Shown: positions 11,121 to 21,625 of the stretch, piece after piece
Layout of the letters: each line of letters starts with the position of its first letter
How positions within the stretch are numbered: the first letter of the stretch is position 1
Virus record (IMG/VR): IMGVR_UViG_3300017781_000119
Location: 1-25,090 of that record
DNA length: 25,090 nt
From: a virus
Reading direction: 5' to 3' (one strand)
Notes under the pieces: model-generated
Told to the model about the DNA's origin: nothing
The model's input: the letters and a program-made list of their open reading frames with translations, nothing else
Database searches by the model: none
Program-made: the position numbers and the translations under genes

Positions 11121-11939
11121 CTATCCAAAAGATACAGCATTTAAAGAAAACGCACTGTTTATATTTGTGTTACTACTTTTAGTTACCGTATAAGTTGTGC
11201 TTCCACTGCCTATGTTAGAGGCAGTTGCAACAAAGTATTGAGCAAAAGTTTTAGCAGTTTGTTGACTTATTGAAAGGTTACCACCTGAAACTGCAGCAGT
11301 ACCTGGATATGAGAAACCTCCCACAACAAAAGTTACCCCTCCACTTTGACCATTTACAGCAATAGTCTCACTTAGTGCATTGGTGGAGGTACTGGCAGAA
11401 GCAGTCGCATAGGGTGTAGAACTGGTGTATCCTGTTATTTCGTAGGTGTAAGAATGCCCGTCTTGCGCCCCCGTGCCGCCACTGTTTCCAGAAATTAGGG
11501 TGCTACCTGATTGGGTGGTTTCTAAATACCATATACTTGTTTGAGATCCTATGCCAGTTGAAGCGTTGTAATGGGGTACTCCCCCCACTGCCTTGGTCAT
11601 GGCAACACCGCCACATAATACACTAGTAGGATTGGTAGAGGTATTTGAACTAGATGCCATTGTATGTGCAGCCACAACAACAACTAGTTTAGTTCCAGAA
11701 GATAGTGTTCTGTTTCCGTTTGCAAAGTTGCCAGTGGTAGTAGATGAAGCACCTATAAATGAAACACTTCCACTTGCAGCAGTGGCCCCGTAGTAATCAC
11801 TAAATGCTGTGTTGTTGTTATCAGCACCAACTAAATCTTTAACATCTGTATCACTTAAGGCAACCTGAGAACCACTACTACCCCCTGCCTCAACATGAAT
11901 TTCATTTAAAGTTATCTGACCACTAGAGGTAAGAGCCAT
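11121..11939 (-). CDS. Tail-fiber-like / adhesin protein (272 aa)
   Basis: The ATG overlaps the stop of the upstream fiber gene (TAATG). Residues 1-55 (SSGQITLNEIHVEAGGSSGS, ending FSDYYGA) resemble the short N-terminal module seen on marine phage tail proteins, where a 'DYYG' end marks attachment to the virion. The remainder is rich in serine, threonine and glycine with beta-strand alternation (LVVVVAAHTM; GGVTFVVGGFSYPGTAAVSG), like receptor-binding beta-sandwich domains. There is no S74 chaperone domain and no coiled coil. It is likely a small host-recognition or decoration protein mounted next to the neighbouring fiber. Local C- and G-rich patches (about 11445-11490) differ from the AT-rich neighbours. 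Confidence 0.65.
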   Translation of the reverse strand: MALTSSGQITLNEIHVEAGGSSGSQVALSDTDVKDLVGADNNNTAFSDYYGATAASGSVSFIGASSTTTGNFANGNRTLSSGTKLVVVVAAHTMASSSNTSTNPTSVLCGGVAMTKAVGGVPHYNASTGIGSQTSIWYLETTQSGSTLISGNSGGTGAQDGHSYTYEITGYTSSTPYATASASTSTNALSETIAVNGQSGGVTFVVGGFSYPGTAAVSGGNLSISQQTAKTFAQYFVATASNIGSGSTTYTVTKSSNTNINSAFSLNAVSFG

Positions 11940-13783
11940 TACTCACACTCACATTTTTTACATTTACATTCATCTAGTTTTTCTTTTAGTTCTTTGATAG
12001 CTTCTATTAGTAATCCATGAAGCTGATCATACTTAACAGTCTTATACTCTACACCCTCTTCTCCAGTGTGAAATACTAATGACTTATTTTCTACAGCAGA
12101 TGGTAATACTTTCTCAACTTCCTGTGCAATTACACCAGCAGCCCTTTTACCATCTTTGTTGTAGCTAAATGTATAACCGCTTAGTTGAGATACTTTATCT
12201 AAAGCACTGTCAATCTTTTCAATGTCATGCTTAAGTCGTTTGTCAGACACAGATGTTGAGAATCCAATTACATCACCATCAACATGTAGATCCCCGTCAT
12301 TCTCTAGCATCATCTCGATTGAACCACCAGTCCTGAACTTAATAGCCTGATCATCTTTATCAAAAGTAATATATTCATCACCATTACCAACAGTAACATC
12401 TAGTGTAGCAGCTAGTCTTTGATCTGCCAGTAAATTTAATGTTATTGTTTCATTACTAGATTGGTTTGTTGTAAAGTTAGCAGTACCAGAAAGCCCTTGA
12501 CCTGCAGCTATAGTGATTGTAGCATTATTAGCAGTGGCTATATTGTTGAATTGAGTTTGAATATTGCTACTGACGCCATCAAGATAACCCAATTCAGTAG
12601 AGGTGACTGCCGAAACTGCTACTTTACCAGAACCATTTGAAATTAATGCCCTGTTTGTTGTAAGGTTTGATGATGTAATCGTACTTGCGCCACCAGTAAT
12701 ACTTGCTTGTTTTGCGTTTAATTGTGTTTGAATACTTGAGGTTACACCATCAGTATAATTTAATTCTGCTGTGGTTGCTGTCACACCGTCTAGAATGTTT
12801 AATTCTGAGGTGCTTGCTGTTAAACCATCGAGCTTGTCAAATTCAGTTGTTGTAACACCTGTTGCTCTCAAATCTTTTGCGTAGTTTAAATCAGCTACTG
12901 CACCAGTAAATCCATCAAGCTTATTTATTTCAGTAGCAGTAGCAGTTACACTTGTAAGATCTGTAGGTGCAATACTAATGTTTCCAGTACCATCAAAAGA
13001 TTGACCAGCAATAGTACGTGCTGTTTGTAATGCTGTGGCTGTAGCTGCGTTACCACCTGCGTTACCTGAAACGTTACCAGTAACATCACCAGTAAGATCT
13101 CCTGTTACGTCACCTGTAATTGCACCAGAAGCGTTTATTGTTGTTGCTGTTACGGCTGCTGCAGTGTTACCACCTATAACTGTACCGTCAATAGTACCAC
13201 CGTTTATATCTGCAGTATCCGCTACAAGAGCATCTATATTAGCTGTGCCATCTATAAACAAATTACGCCACTGCTTTGTAGAACTACCTAAATCAAAACT
13301 ATCATCATCATCAGGTATGATACTACTATCAATCTCTGCACCAAAAGACACAGTATCTGTATCAGCATCACCAAAAGTAAGGTTACCGTTTATTGTAGCA
13401 TTACCTGTAACTGTAAGATTACCTCCTATAGCAACGTCAGCTACTGTTGTTACATTACCAGTAAAGGTAGAAGTTTCATCTACAGTAAGTATATCTGTCC
13501 TTAATGTTCCATCAAAGAAGCCATCCTTCCACTCAATACTAGAAGTACCGAAGTCGTAGGTGTTGTCTACTTTAGGACGTACAACACTAGATGTAACTAC
13601 AAAGTCCTGTGATGGTCCTAAGTTTGAAATGGGTGGACCATTTCCTGCAGTGCCATCGTGTGCATGTCCTGAAGATGCGTTGAATGCTCCTTCAATAGCA
13701 TTATATTCTGAGTTAAAGTCTGCAGCATCAATAACTGCACCTGTAACTATGTTAGCTGTCGCTTGACGTGTATATCCTGCCAT
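11939..13783 (-). CDS. Tail fiber with C-terminal S74 intramolecular chaperone (614 aa)
   Basis: The N-terminus (GYTRQATANIVTGAVIDAAD, then FNSEYNAIEGAF and GHAHDGTAG) is a common phage fiber attachment module. A beta-rich shaft follows with SSIEWKDGFFDGTL and STKQWRNLFIDGTA motifs, a GDVTG/GDLTG run (nt 13051-13125) and LDGxT-type repeats (nt about 12545-12945). A metal-coordinating or receptor-facing section precedes the chaperone. Residues 513-614 are the S74 domain starting SDKRLKHDIE, with S513 and K518 in the S-x4-K spacing of the self-cleaving dyad, and GVIAQEVEKVLP. The last residues, ECKCKKCECE, contain four cysteines, unusual after an S74 coiled coil. It lies directly after the nozzle-like gene, so it may be the main tail fiber; receptor is unknown. 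Confidence 0.85.
   Translation of the reverse strand: MAGYTRQATANIVTGAVIDAADFNSEYNAIEGAFNASSGHAHDGTAGNGPPISNLGPSQDFVVTSSVVRPKVDNTYDFGTSSIEWKDGFFDGTLRTDILTVDETSTFTGNVTTVADVAIGGNLTVTGNATINGNLTFGDADTDTVSFGAEIDSSIIPDDDDSFDLGSSTKQWRNLFIDGTANIDALVADTADINGGTIDGTVIGGNTAAAVTATTINASGAITGDVTGDLTGDVTGNVSGNAGGNAATATALQTARTIAGQSFDGTGNISIAPTDLTSVTATATEINKLDGFTGAVADLNYAKDLRATGVTTTEFDKLDGLTASTSELNILDGVTATTAELNYTDGVTSSIQTQLNAKQASITGGASTITSSNLTTNRALISNGSGKVAVSAVTSTELGYLDGVSSNIQTQFNNIATANNATITIAAGQGLSGTANFTTNQSSNETITLNLLADQRLAATLDVTVGNGDEYITFDKDDQAIKFRTGGSIEMMLENDGDLHVDGDVIGFSTSVSDKRLKHDIEKIDSALDKVSQLSGYTFSYNKDGKRAAGVIAQEVEKVLPSAVENKSLVFHTGEEGVEYKTVKYDQLHGLLIEAIKELKEKLDECKCKKCECE
11942..12247 (-). other. S74 self-cleaving chaperone domain of the 614-aa fiber
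   Basis: Residues 513-614 of the 614-aa fiber. The start SDKRLK places serine and lysine in the spacing known for the catalytic dyad of endosialidase-type C-terminal chaperones, where cleavage occurs just before the serine after trimer folding. GVIAQEVEKVLP and the final helical EAIKELKEKLDE follow. In mature virions this part is expected to be released, including the cysteine cluster. Confidence 0.8.
12545..12945 (-). repeat. LDGxT-type degenerate repeats in the fiber shaft
   Basis: The encoded protein has repeated short units of 13-18 residues: ATEINKLDGF, TTTEFDKLDGL, STSELNILDGV, TTAELNYTDGV and, further on, TSTELGYLDGV, the last two followed by SSIQTQLN or SNIQTQFN. These are degenerate at DNA level and look like elongated beta or helical shaft units common in marine phage fibers. 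Confidence 0.7.
13051..13125 (-). repeat. GDVTG pentapeptide run
   Basis: The fiber protein contains ITGDVTGDLTGDVTGNVSGN, five-residue units of G-[DN]-[VL]-[TS]-G, just before a GNAATATALQTARTI segment that is common after such runs in phage fibers. The DNA is correspondingly repetitive (units of 15 bases with synonymous differences). Confidence 0.75.
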
Positions 13784-13785
13784 GA

Positions 13786-15609
13786 TTATTGCCTATCGTT
13801 TTGCCTATATTGTAATACTGCTGAGTCTAAGGTGAAGGGTGGGTTAGTGCTGTCACTTGTGATTCTCATAGCAACTGTATGAAAAGATCCTATTAAGTTT
13901 TCGTTGTACACTCTTTTTATTTTACTTCCGTATATTACGCCTGTGCCACCATACACAGAATTAGGCTGACCAAAAATAAACGTACCAGTACCACCTGTTG
14001 TAGACCCTACTTCTATTTCTTCTGGTTGTATTATCCTTGTGTCACCCCCTGAATCAAAGTCAAACAAAAGTCTAAACTTTAAATCCATCTGACCTGTAGG
14101 GTCTGTGTATAGTGTTAACTTATATGCTGTCTTACGTACCTCTGGATCTGTAATAGCCATAAAGGGTGTTTCCATAATAGTTTCTATGTTACTACCATCG
14201 AATCCATTTGTTTGTTCCATTTCGTATAGGAAGCCATCATTGTTAGCAAACATTATAGCTTCTGATGTTCCTGAGTATATACTATCTGCTACAAATGCTT
14301 TTATTCCTTTTGTAGTAGACCACTCAACACCTGAACCACCCTGAGATATAAATTTAGTAGCAATCAAACCTTCTGATGTGTCTGTGCTTTGAGATCCTAC
14401 AAAGGCAAATATTCTATACTGAGCTTTTTCTCTTATTATAACAGAACAGTATTCAGTTGTCGATCTTAAAAAGTCATCTGCGTCTTTAAATATTGTATCT
14501 GACGCAACGTCTAACGCAAAGTCACCTATACGATCAGTAGCACTTAATAGTCTTAGACCATCTGGTGCTAGGTACATTATGTCACCGCCAAACTCTTGAA
14601 CACTATCTGCACTAATACAACCTATCTTATCAGTGACAGGTTTTATTTCAAAGAAAGGACTAGCACCAAGTCTTACTAATGATTGTATTGTGTCTGCAGT
14701 AAATATAATAAGCTTTTCACGAAAGACAGATAAACCAGTTACTGTGTTTCCAACATTTGAAACAAGGTTAGTAACTCCTCCACCAGACACATTAGCTATA
14801 GTAAATTGACCTGATACATAAATCTGATTGTTTTTAGAGTATACTATACTGTTGTCAAATACAGTAACTAACTCTGCACCTTGTAAGTCTGTAGATATAC
14901 CTGTAGTAGATGAGGTTAAAAAAGATACAGTATTACCAGAGCTATTATACACGGCTGGATAGTTTATTCCATCTACAAATACTGTTTTGTCATCTCCATC
15001 AAAGTTAAACGTAACGTGTCGTAGTTTACCTCCACCTGTTAATGGTGAAGTAGCCATGTGTGTCCAAGTTGTACCTGTGCTAAGAAAGTAACCTGTTTTG
15101 TTTACGTCTGCTGTTTGAAGTCCAACCTTTTGAAAAGTTAAAGCTGCATTATCTGATAGAGACTGTTGATGAGATAGTACAATATTATTCTGATCTGTTA
15201 CTGTAGAAACCGTTACAGTACCAGAGATACCTGTGCCTGTAACAACCATACCTACAACTATAGTACCTACATTACCATCCAAAGCTACACTAGTAGAGTT
15301 TGTTGTAGCACCGTTTACAGCAGCAGTTGCTTGATAGGCTGCTACAGCACTAGAGTCAATCTTACGTACAGCTACAGCACGACCACTAGAAACAACCTTC
15401 ACCCCTTGTACATTACCAGTCCCTGGAATTTCAGTAGCGCTAAACTTCTGATAGCCTCTTACTTTTGTGTAGCCACCCTGCCTGTCAGGTTCCATGTTTT
15501 GTAGTATAGTAGTTGTACCAACAGAATTAATACCCTGTTGTAAGGGAGACTGATTAGAGATCAAACCACCTTTGAACTCAACAGGAAAGGTAGACCATTG
15601 TGTAGCCAT
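13786..15609 (-). CDS. Tail nozzle / stabilization-like protein (607 aa)
   Basis: The ATG overlaps the stop of the adaptor-like gene (TAATG). The N-terminus (FPVEFKGGLISNQSPLQQGI, then TTILQNMEPDRQGGYTKVRG) resembles the start of podophage tail-tube distal proteins (P22 gp10 / T7 gp12 type), in which many short beta strands form a propeller. Repeated beta pieces fit this, for example GRAVAVRKI, DKTVFVDGINYPAVYN, REKLIIFTADTIQSL and DIMYLAPDGLRLL. The last part (RLLFDFDSGGDTRIIQPEEI) is also beta-rich. It would form the nozzle through which DNA leaves the tail and to which fibers attach. The order adaptor then nozzle then fiber agrees with podophage tail modules. Support comes from context and strand pattern, not a strict motif. 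Confidence 0.65.
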   Translation of the reverse strand: MATQWSTFPVEFKGGLISNQSPLQQGINSVGTTTILQNMEPDRQGGYTKVRGYQKFSATEIPGTGNVQGVKVVSSGRAVAVRKIDSSAVAAYQATAAVNGATTNSTSVALDGNVGTIVVGMVVTGTGISGTVTVSTVTDQNNIVLSHQQSLSDNAALTFQKVGLQTADVNKTGYFLSTGTTWTHMATSPLTGGGKLRHVTFNFDGDDKTVFVDGINYPAVYNSSGNTVSFLTSSTTGISTDLQGAELVTVFDNSIVYSKNNQIYVSGQFTIANVSGGGVTNLVSNVGNTVTGLSVFREKLIIFTADTIQSLVRLGASPFFEIKPVTDKIGCISADSVQEFGGDIMYLAPDGLRLLSATDRIGDFALDVASDTIFKDADDFLRSTTEYCSVIIREKAQYRIFAFVGSQSTDTSEGLIATKFISQGGSGVEWSTTKGIKAFVADSIYSGTSEAIMFANNDGFLYEMEQTNGFDGSNIETIMETPFMAITDPEVRKTAYKLTLYTDPTGQMDLKFRLLFDFDSGGDTRIIQPEEIEVGSTTGGTGTFIFGQPNSVYGGTGVIYGSKIKRVYNENLIGSFHTVAMRITSDSTNPPFTLDSAVLQYRQNDRQ

Positions 15610-16292
15610 TAAAAATGTACTCTCATATCTCTTAGATAATCTGTTCTATTAATGTTTATACTTCTAAGATGCTTTATACCTTGCTGAAACTTCTGTAACA
15701 TAGCATTCGAACTAGCTGTGTCTCCTCTGAACTGGTATGCATAATGCATTGCACCATCTACAATAGTAAATCTATACTGTTCTGGTATGGAGGGAACATC
15801 TGTAGCAGAGATAAGATCATAACCTATTCTGTAGTATTCGTATACCATTTCATATGCTTTATCTGGCATTGGGTAACAGATTAGTTCTCTGTTAGGTGTT
15901 CTTATTATGTGTGTAGGACATCCCTTTGTTTCAGTGTTATACTCAGCATCTGCATACTTTTCTAGATACTCTTCGTATGTCATATTCTTTAGCTTGACAG
16001 TACCAACATTAAGAGTAGAGTTTCTTTTTATTCTAACACTGTTCATGTTTATAGTTTTTGCATCATTAGGATAGCTGTATCTAGGTTCAGCTACAGTAAG
16101 TGTTTCTTCTTCTTCTGCATGGTTCCAAGGCCACTCATACTCTTCTTGTTGTATCTGTCTAATAGCAGAGTTTACTGCCTCTTTAGCAAAAGCAAAGAAT
16201 CCTGTAACAGTAGCAAAGTTATCTGTAGTTAACTCTACTTCATTAAGCCTACTGTTGACATCGTTAACTAGTCCTATAAAATCATATGCCAT
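15609..16292 (-). CDS. Head-tail adaptor-like protein (227 aa)
   Basis: The N-terminus is helical (FIGLVNDVNSRLNEVELTTD, then FFAFAKEAVNSAIRQIQQEE and YEWPWNH). A beta-containing middle part follows (EEETLTVAEPRYSYPND; TYEEYLEKYADAE). The end is helical again (RFTIVDGAMHYAYQFRGDTA; LQKFQQGIKHLRS). This helix-beta-helix build, length near 200-230 residues, and position just before the nozzle-like gene fit podophage adaptor or tail-tube A proteins (T7 gp11, P22 gp4, SU10 adaptor), which bind the portal and carry the tail. A short AGAGAAG precedes the ATG. Sequence identity to any named family cannot be confirmed by eye. Confidence 0.65.
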   Translation of the reverse strand: MAYDFIGLVNDVNSRLNEVELTTDNFATVTGFFAFAKEAVNSAIRQIQQEEYEWPWNHAEEEETLTVAEPRYSYPNDAKTINMNSVRIKRNSTLNVGTVKLKNMTYEEYLEKYADAEYNTETKGCPTHIIRTPNRELICYPMPDKAYEMVYEYYRIGYDLISATDVPSIPEQYRFTIVDGAMHYAYQFRGDTASSNAMLQKFQQGIKHLRSININRTDYLRDMRVHF

Positions 16293-17320: not shown

Positions 17321-19453
17321 TTATCCTTCTAATGCTGCGACTTTGGTTTCGAGTGTTTCAATCCTAGTCATTGCCTCTTGCAGTGCCTTGACTGCTTTCA
17401 TGTAAAGGATGGAAAGTTTAACGTGCTTATAACCCTCTTCGTTTACTCCGACTAAGCCATCCATCCCTGCCTCTTCAACCTCTTGGGCAATAACACCCAA
17501 CATAGCGGTTGAATCTGGGTCAGCTTTTACATCGTCAATCATTCTATAATTGCGGAACTTGAGGGCTTTTACATCTTCCCACTGACTGTTAGCATCTACA
17601 ATGTCTTGCTTTAAGCGTTCATCAGAAATTGTGCCATAAGTACCAGTGGCGTTATACATAGCACCTTCAGTCAGCATATAACCTTTAGTGGCCGTAGTAC
17701 TACTAACGTCAGAACTCCAAATTTGAATAGAGCCGCCTGATGTGTTTGCTTGTCTATAAGCCCGAAGACCAACTGCCCCAGCTGGTGTTACAAACCACCA
17801 AGCGTCAGTATAGTAACCTCTAGGATTACCACCGCCATCAGACAGCACGATGTTGTTGCTTGAGGTGCGGATGTCCAAGCCGCCTTGGTTGCCTGTATAA
17901 CGTCCAAGGATAGTATTATTAACGCCTGTAGTTATGTAGTAACCAGAGTTATGACCAATGGCGGTATTTGATGTGGTGTTTGTGCTAGAGCCTGTGGTGA
18001 GTGAGCGTAGAGCATTTACACCTATTGCCGTATTTTCTGATGCAGTGGTGTTGTTAACTAAAGCACTATGACCAAGAGCAACATTATAACCACCCGTGGT
18101 ATTGTTGTAGAAACTTTGATTGCCTAACACTGTATTATATGTTCCGGTAGTGTTACTATATGCTGCCTGATACCCAGCCGCTGTATTGTTGCTTGCGGTG
18201 GTGTTACTATACAGAGAACCTACGCCTATTGATGTATTATAAGATGCGGTGGTATTGTTTTGCAAAGCATCACGACCCATTGCTACATTTGAGCCGCCTG
18301 TCGTATTATCATAAAGTGACCACTGACCTACTGCTGTATTAGTATCGCCAGTAGTATTAGAATATAACGCCTGATAACCTATGCCTATTCCGCTTGATGC
18401 GGTAGAGTTAGAGTAGAGGGATTGATGCCCTATGGCGGTGTTGTTTGAACCGCTAGTGTTAAATCTTAAAGTTGAGGTTCCAAGACTAACATTACTATCG
18501 CCTGTGGTGGCATACATAGCAGTAGAACCAACAGCTACGTTTGCACCGCCTGTTGTCGCTGAGTAGAGTGCCTGTCGCCCAACTGCAACTACGTTGTCTG
18601 CCGTTGTTCCGCTAAAAGAAGCTTGATACCCGACTGCCGTATTGTTACTTGCGGTGGTGTTGGCTTGTAATGCTTGACGCCCTATTGCAGTATTAGAAGC
18701 TCCAGTGGTGCTTGCTGTCAAAGCACGGAAACCAACAGCCGTGTTGTCATCCGCTGTTGTATTAGCCTCTAGTGCCTCACGACCCAATGCAGTGTTAAAC
18801 TCACCTGTTGTATTAGTTGTCATTGCAAGATAACCTATTGCCACATTTCCTGAAGCAGTAGTGTTTGCACGTAATGCATCAGAACCATATGCAGTATTGT
18901 AACTACCTGTGGTGTTGGCTTGCATCGCTTCATTACCAGAAGATGTATTGTCTTGCCCCGTTGTATTGTAGAATAACGAGTTGCGACCTAGTGCCGTGTT
19001 ATCCACACCTGTCGTATTAGTATAAAGTGCTTTTCGTCCAATAGCAGTAATGGGGGAGCCAGTGGTGTTACTAAACGCTGCCTGATAACCAACTGCTGTG
19101 TTGTCAGATGCGGTGGTGTTGGCGCTTAAAGAAAAGCTACCTAGCGCAGTATTTGAGCTACCAGTGGTGTTTGCATCTAGTGAGGCATAACCAACAGAAG
19201 AATTATTTGTACCCGTTGTGTTAGCCCTTAAAGAGTAAGTACCTACTGCCACACTATAGCCACTACCAGATTCAGTTGCTATTAAAGCTTCATCACCTAA
19301 AGCAACATTTCTTGTACCAGTCGGGTAATTACCATCTAGCTTTACTGTACCGCTATCGACAGACACGTTTCCTGCGACAGTCAAACCATCAAGCGTTAAT
19401 GTACCTGTGATGTCCTTGTCAGCGCTGTCTGCTAAATCTCTAGCTCTGGTCAT
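17321..19453 (-). CDS. Tail fiber built of 17-residue repeats with C-terminal S74 chaperone (710 aa)
   Basis: The ATG follows the upstream stop directly (ATGTAAATG). Residues 1-47 (ARDLADSADKDITGTLTLDG and following) are a short fiber N-terminus. Residues 48-514 are about 27 consecutive repeats of a 17-residue unit with consensus A-[VIL]-G-x-x-[AS]-L-x-x-N-T-T-[GA]-x-x-N-T, resembling the N-[ST]-x-A-x-G beta-roll repeats of YadA-type adhesin heads; a trimeric left-handed roll is a reasonable model. Residues 515-609 form a variable part probably near the tip (AWWFVTPAGAVGLRAYRQAN). Residues 610-710 are an S74 domain (SDERLKQDIV, GVIAQEVEEAG) ending in a coiled coil. Its DNA looks less AT-rich than neighbours. 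It is probably a receptor-binding fiber; receptor unknown. Confidence 0.85.
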   Translation of the reverse strand: MTRARDLADSADKDITGTLTLDGLTVAGNVSVDSGTVKLDGNYPTGTRNVALGDEALIATESGSGYSVAVGTYSLRANTTGTNNSSVGYASLDANTTGSSNTALGSFSLSANTTASDNTAVGYQAAFSNTTGSPITAIGRKALYTNTTGVDNTALGRNSLFYNTTGQDNTSSGNEAMQANTTGSYNTAYGSDALRANTTASGNVAIGYLAMTTNTTGEFNTALGREALEANTTADDNTAVGFRALTASTTGASNTAIGRQALQANTTASNNTAVGYQASFSGTTADNVVAVGRQALYSATTGGANVAVGSTAMYATTGDSNVSLGTSTLRFNTSGSNNTAIGHQSLYSNSTASSGIGIGYQALYSNTTGDTNTAVGQWSLYDNTTGGSNVAMGRDALQNNTTASYNTSIGVGSLYSNTTASNNTAAGYQAAYSNTTGTYNTVLGNQSFYNNTTGGYNVALGHSALVNNTTASENTAIGVNALRSLTTGSSTNTTSNTAIGHNSGYYITTGVNNTILGRYTGNQGGLDIRTSSNNIVLSDGGGNPRGYYTDAWWFVTPAGAVGLRAYRQANTSGGSIQIWSSDVSSTTATKGYMLTEGAMYNATGTYGTISDERLKQDIVDANSQWEDVKALKFRNYRMIDDVKADPDSTAMLGVIAQEVEEAGMDGLVGVNEEGYKHVKLSILYMKAVKALQEAMTRIETLETKVAALEG
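17324..17626 (-). other. S74 self-cleaving chaperone domain of the 710-aa fiber
   Basis: Residues 610-710. SDERLK has serine and lysine in the S-x4-K spacing of the S74 dyad; GVIAQEVEEAGMDGLVG and the final coiled coil AMTRIETLETKVAALEG are typical. Cleavage before the serine is expected after the trimer folds. Confidence 0.8.
17912..19312 (-). repeat. Tandem array of 51-bp units encoding 17-residue fiber repeats (about 27 copies)
   Basis: Units are nearly all exactly 17 residues; exceptions are the first two (20 and 18), one of 16 and one of 22. DNA units have drifted by synonymous and conservative changes, so the array is old, not a recent slippage product. Units numbered 4, 13 and 22 from the N-terminus are followed by units of the form GYQA[AS][FY], placing similar pairs exactly nine units apart (459 and 456 bases: positions 19080, 18621 and 18165). 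Confidence 0.9.
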
Positions 19454-21625
19454 TTACATGGCTCCTATAATAAAGGCTAATAGTTCATTGTATCTTACGC
19501 CTAATCTAGTTTGTTCTTTGCCGTCATCATCTGTCCAAGTTGTAGAGATAAACATTGCATAACGTCCTGGGTCTAAACTTTCTGCTTCAAACGCTGCTTT
19601 CAAGTCTTGTGCTACAATACCTACGTGGATACGAGCATCATCACCCTTTTCTGTTACCTTATCTTTCCAACGAAACTTCTTAATTAAACCTTTGGCGGCT
19701 GTAGCTACTCGTTTCTCAGCATCAGATAGAGCTTCGATGTCTTGCTTTTCGTTAGCGTCAGAAGTTTGGATTGTTCCGTTGGTTGCGTAAATGTCGTCAA
19801 ACCTTGTAGCACTACGTCCTAAATCTATCGCATTGTCTCTTCCACTATTAACTGTAGTCCAAGGAAGTATAGCATCTATATTGTCGCCAAAAAGCAAAGC
19901 AGTATTACCATCGCCAATACCCATTTGGACACCGCCAGAAGAAAATATTACACCAACTTCTGAACCATCTTTTTGAAACTGTACAATATCTCCATCACCT
20001 GTTGTACGATTAAGGCGCATACAATAGTTATTATTAACTGTACCAAAGATATTACCAGATTGATAAAGCATAACACCTACGGTAGCCGAAGCAGGTGCAG
20101 TTTTTCCAACTAATAAATGTCCAACAGCACTTTCAATACGCATACGTTCTGTGTTGTTAGTACCAAATACCATACTAGTATTTTCACGGTTCCAAATATA
20201 AGGTGTGCCGCTAGAAACTACTATGTGAAGACCATCAGTATTAGCACTTCCTGTTGTTCCATCTGTTATGTGTAGTGCTGCTCCTCCAGTATTAGAAGTA
20301 GTTCTAATATTTAGATTTTTAGAATATTGAGATGAAGGGGTTGAAAGTCCAATTCCAACGTTTCCATTAAAATAGATATCTCTATTTGCTAATAAACCTA
20401 AACCAGTTCCTGCGGAATTATTAATATATAAAGCGCCATCAGAGTAAGAATAAAAGTCTATACTATCACTTGAGCCAGTAATACGCATCTGGGGAGAATT
20501 TCCAGTTCGATTAAGATGGAGGAGTTGAGCAGGGGAGGCAGTCCCAATCCCTACGTTTCCTGATGTATTTATAACAAGTCTGTCACTGCTACTTACAACA
20601 TCAGAAATAAAGAAAGCGTCAGAGTTTGCTCCATCAATTCCCATGAACCAATTATCAGAAGCATTACCAATTTGATAAGAAGCACGACCATTTGCTGCAG
20701 ACGTTCTTGCCTTTACCACAGCTACATTAGTACCATCTTCAACCACAGTAAGTTTATTTTCTGGAGTTGTATCTGAGATTCCAACATGACCTGCGCTATC
20801 AATACGCATACGTTCTGTATAAGTTTCAGAACCAATATTACCTGTAGTTGTGTAAAACGCTTGGGTAGAAGCTGCAGGAGAACCAATAGCTGAACCTGCG
20901 CCACCATTTATGCTAAATTGTGCAAAGCCACCGCCTGATGAATTTATAACAAGTCTTACATCACTAGAAGATGAACTTGTAGATGTACCAACTAAAACCT
21001 TATTATTAAATATAGCCGTTCCTGCAGCAGACATATCAAGGGTTAATGCAGTTACCCCTGCGCCACCATCGTCCCCCAAAAACTTTATGTCTTTGTCTTG
21101 TACTTTGTTTTCTATAACTAAGTCACTGCTTGAGTTCCCGATATTTGCAATATGAGTGCCACCATCTTTAAACTTTATAGTACCGCCATCAGCATCAAGA
21201 ATAATATCTCCTGCTACATCAAGAAGTAAATCTCCAGCAGACAGGTCAATTTCTGCGCCATCTATGGTAATATTATCTATAGTAACACCACCGTCAAAGT
21301 CTGCTGATGTACCAGAGATAGCACCAGTAGCAGTGAGTGCAGCCACAGTAGTAGTGCCAGTAAAGTTCTGGTTAAGCACCTCAAAGGCTGTGTATGCTAC
21401 AACTTCTACTATATCATTAGCAGCAGCACCAGAAGCTAAAACAACGTCTGATCCATTTGTGGCTGTAAAGTCTGCTGCAGCTAGTTTGACGCCATTCATA
21501 AAGACATCTATAAAGCCAGCAGTATAACCACCAGTGTTGAAAGTTGTTTGGTTAGAAGTAGCAGTAAAAGCTTCTCTTGTCTGAGTAGCCTGTGGTACTG
21601 GTATGCTTCCAATATATCCTGCCAT
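19454..21625 (-). CDS. Tail fiber with C-terminal S74 chaperone (723 aa)
   Basis: The N-terminus (GYIGSIPVPQATQTREAFTA) begins a module followed by TTFNTGGYTAGFIDVFMNGV, common at the virion-binding end of marine phage fibers. The shaft has strands such as DGGVTIDNITIDGAEIDLSA and GDIILDADGGTIKFKDG, then several ERMRID/RLVIN units followed by GxVGI (AGHVGIS; SGNVGIGTASP; VGHLLVGKTAP). Residues 622-723 are a variant S74 domain (SDANEKQDIE with the S-x4-K spacing; HVGIVAQDLKAAF; GVRYNELLAFIIGAM) without a final coiled coil. It shares short modules with the 522-aa fiber next door. The ribosome binding site is weak (AAGAAAG). A receptor-binding role is likely; the receptor is unknown. Confidence 0.85.
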   Translation of the reverse strand: MAGYIGSIPVPQATQTREAFTATSNQTTFNTGGYTAGFIDVFMNGVKLAAADFTATNGSDVVLASGAAANDIVEVVAYTAFEVLNQNFTGTTTVAALTATGAISGTSADFDGGVTIDNITIDGAEIDLSAGDLLLDVAGDIILDADGGTIKFKDGGTHIANIGNSSSDLVIENKVQDKDIKFLGDDGGAGVTALTLDMSAAGTAIFNNKVLVGTSTSSSSSDVRLVINSSGGGFAQFSINGGAGSAIGSPAASTQAFYTTTGNIGSETYTERMRIDSAGHVGISDTTPENKLTVVEDGTNVAVVKARTSAANGRASYQIGNASDNWFMGIDGANSDAFFISDVVSSSDRLVINTSGNVGIGTASPAQLLHLNRTGNSPQMRITGSSDSIDFYSYSDGALYINNSAGTGLGLLANRDIYFNGNVGIGLSTPSSQYSKNLNIRTTSNTGGAALHITDGTTGSANTDGLHIVVSSGTPYIWNRENTSMVFGTNNTERMRIESAVGHLLVGKTAPASATVGVMLYQSGNIFGTVNNNYCMRLNRTTGDGDIVQFQKDGSEVGVIFSSGGVQMGIGDGNTALLFGDNIDAILPWTTVNSGRDNAIDLGRSATRFDDIYATNGTIQTSDANEKQDIEALSDAEKRVATAAKGLIKKFRWKDKVTEKGDDARIHVGIVAQDLKAAFEAESLDPGRYAMFISTTWTDDDGKEQTRLGVRYNELLAFIIGAM
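19457..19762 (-). other. Variant S74 chaperone domain of the 723-aa fiber
   Basis: Residues 622-723. SDANEK retains serine and lysine at the usual spacing, although the residues between differ from the other two fibers here. HVGIVAQDLKAAF replaces the usual GVIAQEV block, and the chain ends in YNELLAFIIGAM with no coiled coil, a different branch of the family. Confidence 0.75.

Follow-up and report, generated by a model that had tools for sequence, protein, structure and literature searches.

How does a long repeat array within a phage tail fiber gene change over time? Phage fibers determine which bacteria are infected, and the long, low-complexity fibers of marine phages are usually annotated only as a "repeat region." The question is raised by one gene in a stretch of viral DNA of 25,090 nucleotides (IMG/VR record IMGVR_UViG_3300017781_000119, positions 1 to 25,090), which is referred to here as the window and whose features are listed in Table 1. 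The product of this gene matched PHROG families 23837, 6002, and 4636 (virion structural or tail spike proteins; E ≤ 1e-69) and ended in a Peptidase_S74 domain that scored above the gathering cutoff (Pfam PF13884; E = 3.2e-9; 37.4 bits versus a cutoff of 22). The S-D-x-R-x-K motif of that domain was present as ISDERLK, and, across the alignment, S610 and K615 were almost invariant. A search of the PDB with the fiber protein sequence gave no match. The adaptor encoded nearby was 67% identical to that of Roseobacter phage CRP-207 and 43% identical to that of HMO-2011, and the structural modules around this homologous adaptor lay in the order expected from the comparison with CRP-207; on this sequence basis, the phage is placed among the HMO-2011-like podophages of marine alphaproteobacteria. 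Among the genes scanned in this 25-kb partial contig, no reverse transcriptase, a mark of a diversity-generating retroelement, was found. The phage may carry several fibers, as the preceding gene also ends in an S74 domain and the product of positions 11939 to 13783 matches tail fiber families; the latter gene contains two copies of a 39-bp tandem repeat (positions 12762 to 12844).

Table 1. Features of the fiber locus, with positions in the window
Feature	Position	Strand	Remarks
SU10-type adaptor	15609..16292	-	PF24175, E 2.8e-17
Tail fiber gene	17321..19453	-	710-aa ORF: N-terminal anchor, 27-unit array, linker, and S74 tip
Peptidase_S74 intramolecular chaperone domain	17462..17626	-	residues 610-664
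Linker ILGRYTGNQGGLDIRTSSNNIVLSDGGGNPR, array to tip	17819..17911	-	conserved at the DNA level
Array, 27 units of 17 residues	17912..19303	-	residues 51-514; unit segmentation and identity matrix
Candidate cassette, units 19-22	18182..18385	-	units 19-21 match L191 units 15-17 at another array position
Seam 3, exact AACACCACCGC	18195..18205	-	unit 22
Cassette, units 14-18	18386..18637	-	L066 units 6-10, same order, another array position
Degenerate junction AACTCTACCGC	18399..18409	-	unit 18; protein junction NSTASSGI/GIGYQ retained; coordinates derived from unit start
Candidate cassette, units 10-13	18638..18841	-	lies between junctions 9/10 and 13/14
Seam 2, exact AACACCACCGC	18651..18661	-	unit 13
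Cassette, units 5-9	18842..19096	-	recurs at different array positions in L014, L053, and (in more diverged form) L188
Degenerate junction AACACTACTGC	18855..18865	-	unit 9; protein junction NTTASGNV/AIGY retained; coordinates derived from unit start
Seam 1, exact AACACCACCGC	19110..19120	-	unit 4
N-terminal anchor, residues 1-50	19304..19453	-	retained where array and tip are replaced (comparison with L020)
Preceding fiber gene	19454..21625	-	also S74-ended (Pfam E 9.7e-10); without array

Segmentation of the fiber recovered the 27 units of 17 residues that the original prediction had described (consensus, A-[VIL]-G-x-x-[AS]-L-x-x-N-T-T-[GA]-x-x-N-T), with unit 16 one residue short and units 1 and 26 extended to 18 and 22 residues, respectively. 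The prediction had also singled out a GYQA[AS][FY] signature, which was indeed confined to units 5, 14, and 23, and preceding units that end in NTTAS[DN]NT, which were read as NTTASDNT in unit 4 and as NTTASNNT in units 13 and 22. The corresponding DNA anchors were spaced 459 and 456 bases apart, with an exact 11-mer at positions 19110, 18651, and 18195. From these features, it had been proposed that unit pairs 4/5, 13/14, and 22/23 were the most alike and that the array had grown by duplication of a nine-unit block. Neither proposal survived. The pairs of highest similarity were 13/21, 5/23, 21/25, 11/13, and 19/23. When lags were evaluated in the 27 × 27 unit identity matrix by permutation of the unit order, lag 9 was unremarkable, with a z value of only 1.2 for protein identity and 2.0 for DNA identity (1.8 and 2.9, respectively, when rarity weighted); the protein z value at lag 4 was higher, at 3.8, and lags 6, 11, and 12 were depleted. 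A Fourier scan of the array gave no signal at nine units and peaked at 4.2 to 4.5 units (global P = 0.014 to 0.024 for protein and 0.0007 to 0.005 for DNA). Dropping the junction units (A13>Y) reduced the lag-9 z value to 0.5 for protein and 0.4 for DNA, and since the signal was lost without these units, nine represents two steps of a 4-to-5-unit recurrence and not a duplicated block. What had been overlooked was the GY in units 10 and 19 and the TTA in units 9 and 18; the GY units are 5, 10, 14, 19, and 23 and the TTA units are 4, 9, 13, 18, and 22, in steps of 5, 4, 5, and 4. Thus, a higher-order structure marked by the GYQA/NTTAS pairs does exist, but neither its block size of nine nor its origin by duplication was upheld.

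The 11-bp motif at the anchors, AACACCACCGC, occurred in three exact copies in the window, against 0.02 expected, and these lay exactly at the anchor positions. It encodes NTTA immediately ahead of a GYQ unit, such that the end of one unit reads AAC-ACC-ACC-GC and the next unit begins with A[VI]GYQ. The two other junctions retained the protein signature with degenerate DNA (Table 1). The nine-unit spacing in the window is that of two adjoining cassettes (5 + 4) whose middle seam lacks the exact DNA motif. No hairpin was found at the seam, and a search of Rfam gave no match.

Eighty viral loci were collected by protein similarity and, together with further sets, provided hundreds of arrays; those sharing the N terminus of this fiber are termed the close group. 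In the close group, the probability of a Y at position 4 was 0.70 when the previous unit carried TTA and 0.19 otherwise, and, with this window left out, junctions were spaced in excess at 4 units (z = 3.9) and 5 units (z = 3.6). In 139 other arrays, the excess lay at lag 5 (z = 5.5). The coupling extended to the DNA. At N10 and T11, the codons AAC and ACC were used in 93% and 78% of the junction units of the close group, compared with 45% and 20% of other units; across three protein-selected sets, T11 was ACC in 78, 45, and 61% of junctions versus 20, 16, and 28% elsewhere, the values of 61% versus 28% being those of a separate set obtained by an N-terminus search. The contrast at T12 (ACC in 84% versus 3% in the close group and 48% versus 2% in the N-terminus set) needs caution, because there may be unrelated grounds for avoiding ACC ahead of a Gly codon. 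The exact 11-mer was present in 67 of 95, 64 of 378, and 58 of 160 junctions in the three protein-selected sets but in only 8 of 42, 12 of 756, and 7 of 212 TTA units not followed by GY (71% versus 19% in the close group and 36% versus 3% in the separate N-terminus set), and the array-bootstrap intervals for the 11-mer and codon differences excluded 0. Within the same junctions, the four-fold sites of T17 and of A1 in the next unit were at the background level; with these sites free, the conservation of the seam is not simply that of a recently copied block.

The motif was also largely specific to the arrays. In IMG/VR, the pattern motif-N7-AACAC fell within arrays at 111 of 116 loci, whereas the control with the spacing wrong by one base (N6) did so at 0 of 13. 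In the collected loci, only 11 of 217 occurrences of AACACCACCGC were scored as outside arrays, three of these still being array located. About 11 of the 114 matches to the seam pattern in bacterial genomes were in array-like sequence; the remainder were chance-like, many of them in GC-rich genomes. Most arrays outside the marine group lacked the exact motif. Among cultured isolates, CRP-1 and CRP-7 carried seams (≤1 mismatch) spaced 4 to 5 units apart, which indicates that the seams are not a product of metagenome assembly, and the arrays of Venkman and HTVC111P were without any seam, which indicates that an array does not require one.

The spacing of the exact 11-mers and the breakpoints of shared DNA both pointed to the seam as the boundary of a module. 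Gaps of 4, 5, and 6 units were observed 55, 52, and 30 times, compared with 21, 18, and 16 expected, and a gap of 1 unit was observed once against 31 expected; these counts pool four sets, one of which was found by the motif itself, and the other three gave the same peak. Of the strong segments of DNA shared between phages (score ≥ 80), 37 of 58 started at the motif (0.64, versus 0.16 expected) and 38 of 62 ended near one (0.61, versus 0.18 expected), although the segment pairs are not independent. The junctions were also masked in the scoring, which guards against conserved seams attracting the edges of alignments, and segment edges were still enriched about threefold over rotation at motif seams; the TTA units without a following GY showed no enrichment in this masked test. 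With masking and with motif-less arrays included, the share of edges at seams dropped from about 0.6 to about 0.2. The enrichment was confined to strong segments, none being seen at junctions at lower score thresholds with an interior control, and segment edges compared at the protein level in the close group gave a marginal result only. In the cultured phage CRP-1, one shared segment ended at the first seam of the array.

Individual genomes provided snapshots of the exchange. Units 5 to 9 of the window were 82 to 94% identical per unit, at the amino acid level, to units 14 to 18 of L014 and units 13 to 17 of L053, and the match to L188 ran from junction to junction. Two related phages, L455 and L458, were 99.75% identical across flanks of 2,801 and 2,825 bp, and between these flanks they differed by exactly one seam-to-seam cassette of 4 units (204 bp); the residues that follow the seam (TTASYNT/TTASENT) place the crossover within the seam. 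Of 14 collinear offset changes, this was the only clean insertion or deletion of a cassette, and others (net 1, 2, and 11 units) fell outside the 4-to-6-unit rule. In most arrays, adjacent units resembled each other more than expected by chance, slightly so even at synonymous sites in arrays outside the close group, and single-unit duplication may operate alongside cassette exchange. A larger replacement was seen in a sister phage, L020, which was 97.2% identical over the 3,637 bp downstream of the fiber. Upstream, the identity was 93.1% over 509 bp of DNA (window positions 19293 to 19801), which included the first 50 fiber codons and then stopped; both the array (23 units) and the S74 tip of L020 differed from those of this phage. 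Amid otherwise unalignable DNA, an island of 115 bp with 86% identity remained at the array-to-tip linker. Identity at four-fold sites in the linker was 0.63, compared with 0.38 in the N terminus and tip (about 36 loci cover the linker), and the linker is likely a second exchange point. An extra ORF of 73 amino acids, with no counterpart in this window, lay between the fiber gene and the next gene of L020 (L020:2535-2756) and may be a helper of the swapped fiber.

Together, these results make it probable that the array represents a mosaic of 4-to-6-turn cassettes (204 to 306 bp) recombined at a conserved seam, in a receptor-binding-type fiber of an HMO-2011-like phage. The pattern of exchange itself was observed, in the spacing of the seams, their synonymous constraint, the breakpoints at seams, one clean cassette gain or loss, and the wholesale swap in L020; we infer that recombination, rather than selection alone, sets the breakpoints. 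In such a scheme, the N-terminal anchor would attach the fiber to the tail, a beta-solenoid of 27 seventeen-residue turns would form the shaft, and the tip would fold with the help of the S74 domain and probably contact the receptor. Each cassette would be bounded by a seam, at which a unit ending in NTTA adjoins one that begins with A[VI]GYQ, and recombination between the seams of one array, or between those of two coinfecting phages, would add, delete, or swap cassettes. As the seams form direct, in-frame repeats, such changes would spare the reading frame and the fold. Whole blocks of array and tip would in turn move between the conserved N terminus and either the linker or the downstream gene. 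Such reshuffling would be expected to alter host binding or fiber length.

Several other explanations were weighed against this one. That the array grew through duplication of nine units at a time is now hardly credible; this view could draw on the rarity-weighted DNA signal at lag 9 and on the exact 11-mers at nine-unit intervals, but the protein signal is weak, the spectrum has no peak at nine, the excess disappears without the junction units, and units 5 to 9 and 14 to 18 (the latter at 62 to 92%) are far closer to units of other phages than the units of this array are to one another. A recent duplication of this kind is refuted, and only a very old event could lie below the noise. A history of block duplication at the 4-to-5-unit scale was likewise rejected, as no such lag was present at the synonymous sites of non-junction units in the close group. 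The absence of a lag 4/5 excess at those sites would also fit a structural recurrence, in which a TTA-GYQ turn is needed every 4 to 5 units for register, packing, or trimer contact and the identity of the DNA reflects shared ancestry, and so would the coupling and 4-to-6-unit spacing of the protein junction even in arrays in which the exact DNA motif is uncommon. This account is nevertheless improbable: synonymous sites within AACACCACCGC are fixed while those of T17 and A1, though part of the same junction, vary freely, shared DNA segments start and end at the seam, and some isolates do without it. It is very unlikely that assemblers created the pattern by joining cassettes of different phages at the repeated seam. 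Most of the loci are metagenomic and many contigs end within arrays (for example, L002, which was rejected as a length variant since it represents the same phage truncated within the array), but the cultured CRP-1 and CRP-7 have the seams and their spacing, plus a seam-ended shared segment, and misassembly cannot yield synonymous constraint.

The preferred reading, exchange of cassettes at the seam, can also be put in a stronger form. That AACACCACCGC is a dedicated recombination signal, retained at the DNA level within a coding repeat and letting phages add, drop, and swap shaft cassettes at a high rate, as a built-in shuffling system for fibers, is a tentative and somewhat doubtful extension. 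That it is specifically recognized by a recombination enzyme of host or phage, as a Chi-like hotspot or a site-specific target that drives the shuffling, we consider unlikely. The discrete, short nature of the motif, its synonymous constraint, the direct repeats, and the breakpoints at the motif speak for this view; however, no such enzyme was identified in the 25-kb window, the motif is rare outside arrays, unlike the genome-wide Chi, and it forms no hairpin.

Models of the shaft disagreed on its handedness. In the full-length AlphaFold2 model, the array formed confident two-strand turns, and this single chain aligned with right-handed beta-helices (Z up to 16); a Foldseek search of the PDB with it gave no match below 1e-3. 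An array-only model, built as a single chain from units 2 to 15 on the basis of 57 arrays aligned in register, matched best with the left-handed beta-rolls of trimeric autotransporters (CbpF, Z = 16.6; BpaC, Z = 16.5, with a root mean square deviation of 2.4 over 197 residues and 33% identity). From this second model, the YadA-like roll suggested in the original prediction is plausible. The shaft may be trimeric. The YadA-type head repeat is the 14-residue GxNSVAIGAxSxAx (PMC9543794), whereas the unit here has 17 residues with a different N-to-G spacing, and the fiber ends in an S74 domain in place of a C-terminal membrane anchor. Pfam YadA_head found no match in the window protein and one among 57 relatives, at an E value of 0.23. 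Twenty-three of 57 members of the repeat family matched LbH_EIF2B (best E = 2e-7), and there was a weak profile match to gamma-carbonic anhydrases; the array of the window itself had no Pfam match to the left-handed beta-helix (hexapeptide) families. BpaC has a higher-order, three-layer repeat that arose by triplet expansion, and such rolls twist by 5.7 degrees per layer (PMC9543794). At that twist, 4 to 5 turns would give no symmetry repeat, and a superhelix was therefore set aside as a probable cause of the 4-to-5-unit period.

The array shares with the YadA, BpaC, and CbpF heads the alignment of the array-only model and, with BpaC, a higher-order repeat, but it differs in its 17 instead of 14 residues per turn, its S74 tip, its lack of a membrane anchor, and a super-repeat of seam-marked 4-to-6-unit cassettes where BpaC has a near-identical triplet expansion. 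Some family members resemble the left-handed beta-helix (hexapeptide) proteins in matching LbH_EIF2B, although the turn is of 17 rather than 18 residues, no enzyme is involved, and the array of the window lacks the Pfam match. As in other S74 fibers, the C-terminal domain scores above its cutoff and has the nearly invariant Ser610 and Lys615, but here the shaft is a long NTTG-type solenoid array.

Mosaic phage fibers are already known. The T-even tail fiber adhesins are said to have been diversified by recombination between conserved motifs, a finding credited to Tetart et al. in 1998. The present fiber resembles them in that it varies by exchange at short conserved stretches with frame and fold preserved, a likeness in the pattern of exchange; it has breakpoints at a conserved motif (for strong segments) and near-identical genomes that differ by one module (L455/L458 and L020). 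It differs in that a synonymously constrained seam recurs every 4 to 6 units inside a 17-residue solenoid array, within the shaft. To our knowledge, a repeated DNA seam under synonymous constraint within a repeat array is new, and the literature searched contained no direct account of such repeats or cassettes. The gain, loss, and swap of seam-bounded blocks in related phages suggests a route of fiber reshuffling. If cassettes with fixed seams are the unit of change, the evolution of such arrays becomes readable, with gains, losses, and swaps countable in environmental data and breakpoints predictable. A repeated 11-mer that is synonymously constrained within such an array poses a concrete and testable puzzle, and, should the cassettes prove to be that unit, simple recoding could separate the role of the seam DNA from that of the seam protein.

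Larger and different arrays were encountered among the relatives. L039 (L039:5348-7963) carried an exact 4-unit tandem at the DNA level, of three 17-residue units and one of 21 (z = 7 to 8, synonymous sites included); this is a true block expansion, an exception to the lack of block-duplication history noted above. A contig with two array genes, L030, encoded a fiber-like protein of about 147 units with 16-residue units every few units (L030:4704-12443). In a loose scan, the bacterial contigs L529, L565, and L538 had 50, 112, and 32 similar units, respectively, in sequences that may be adhesin-like or prophage derived.
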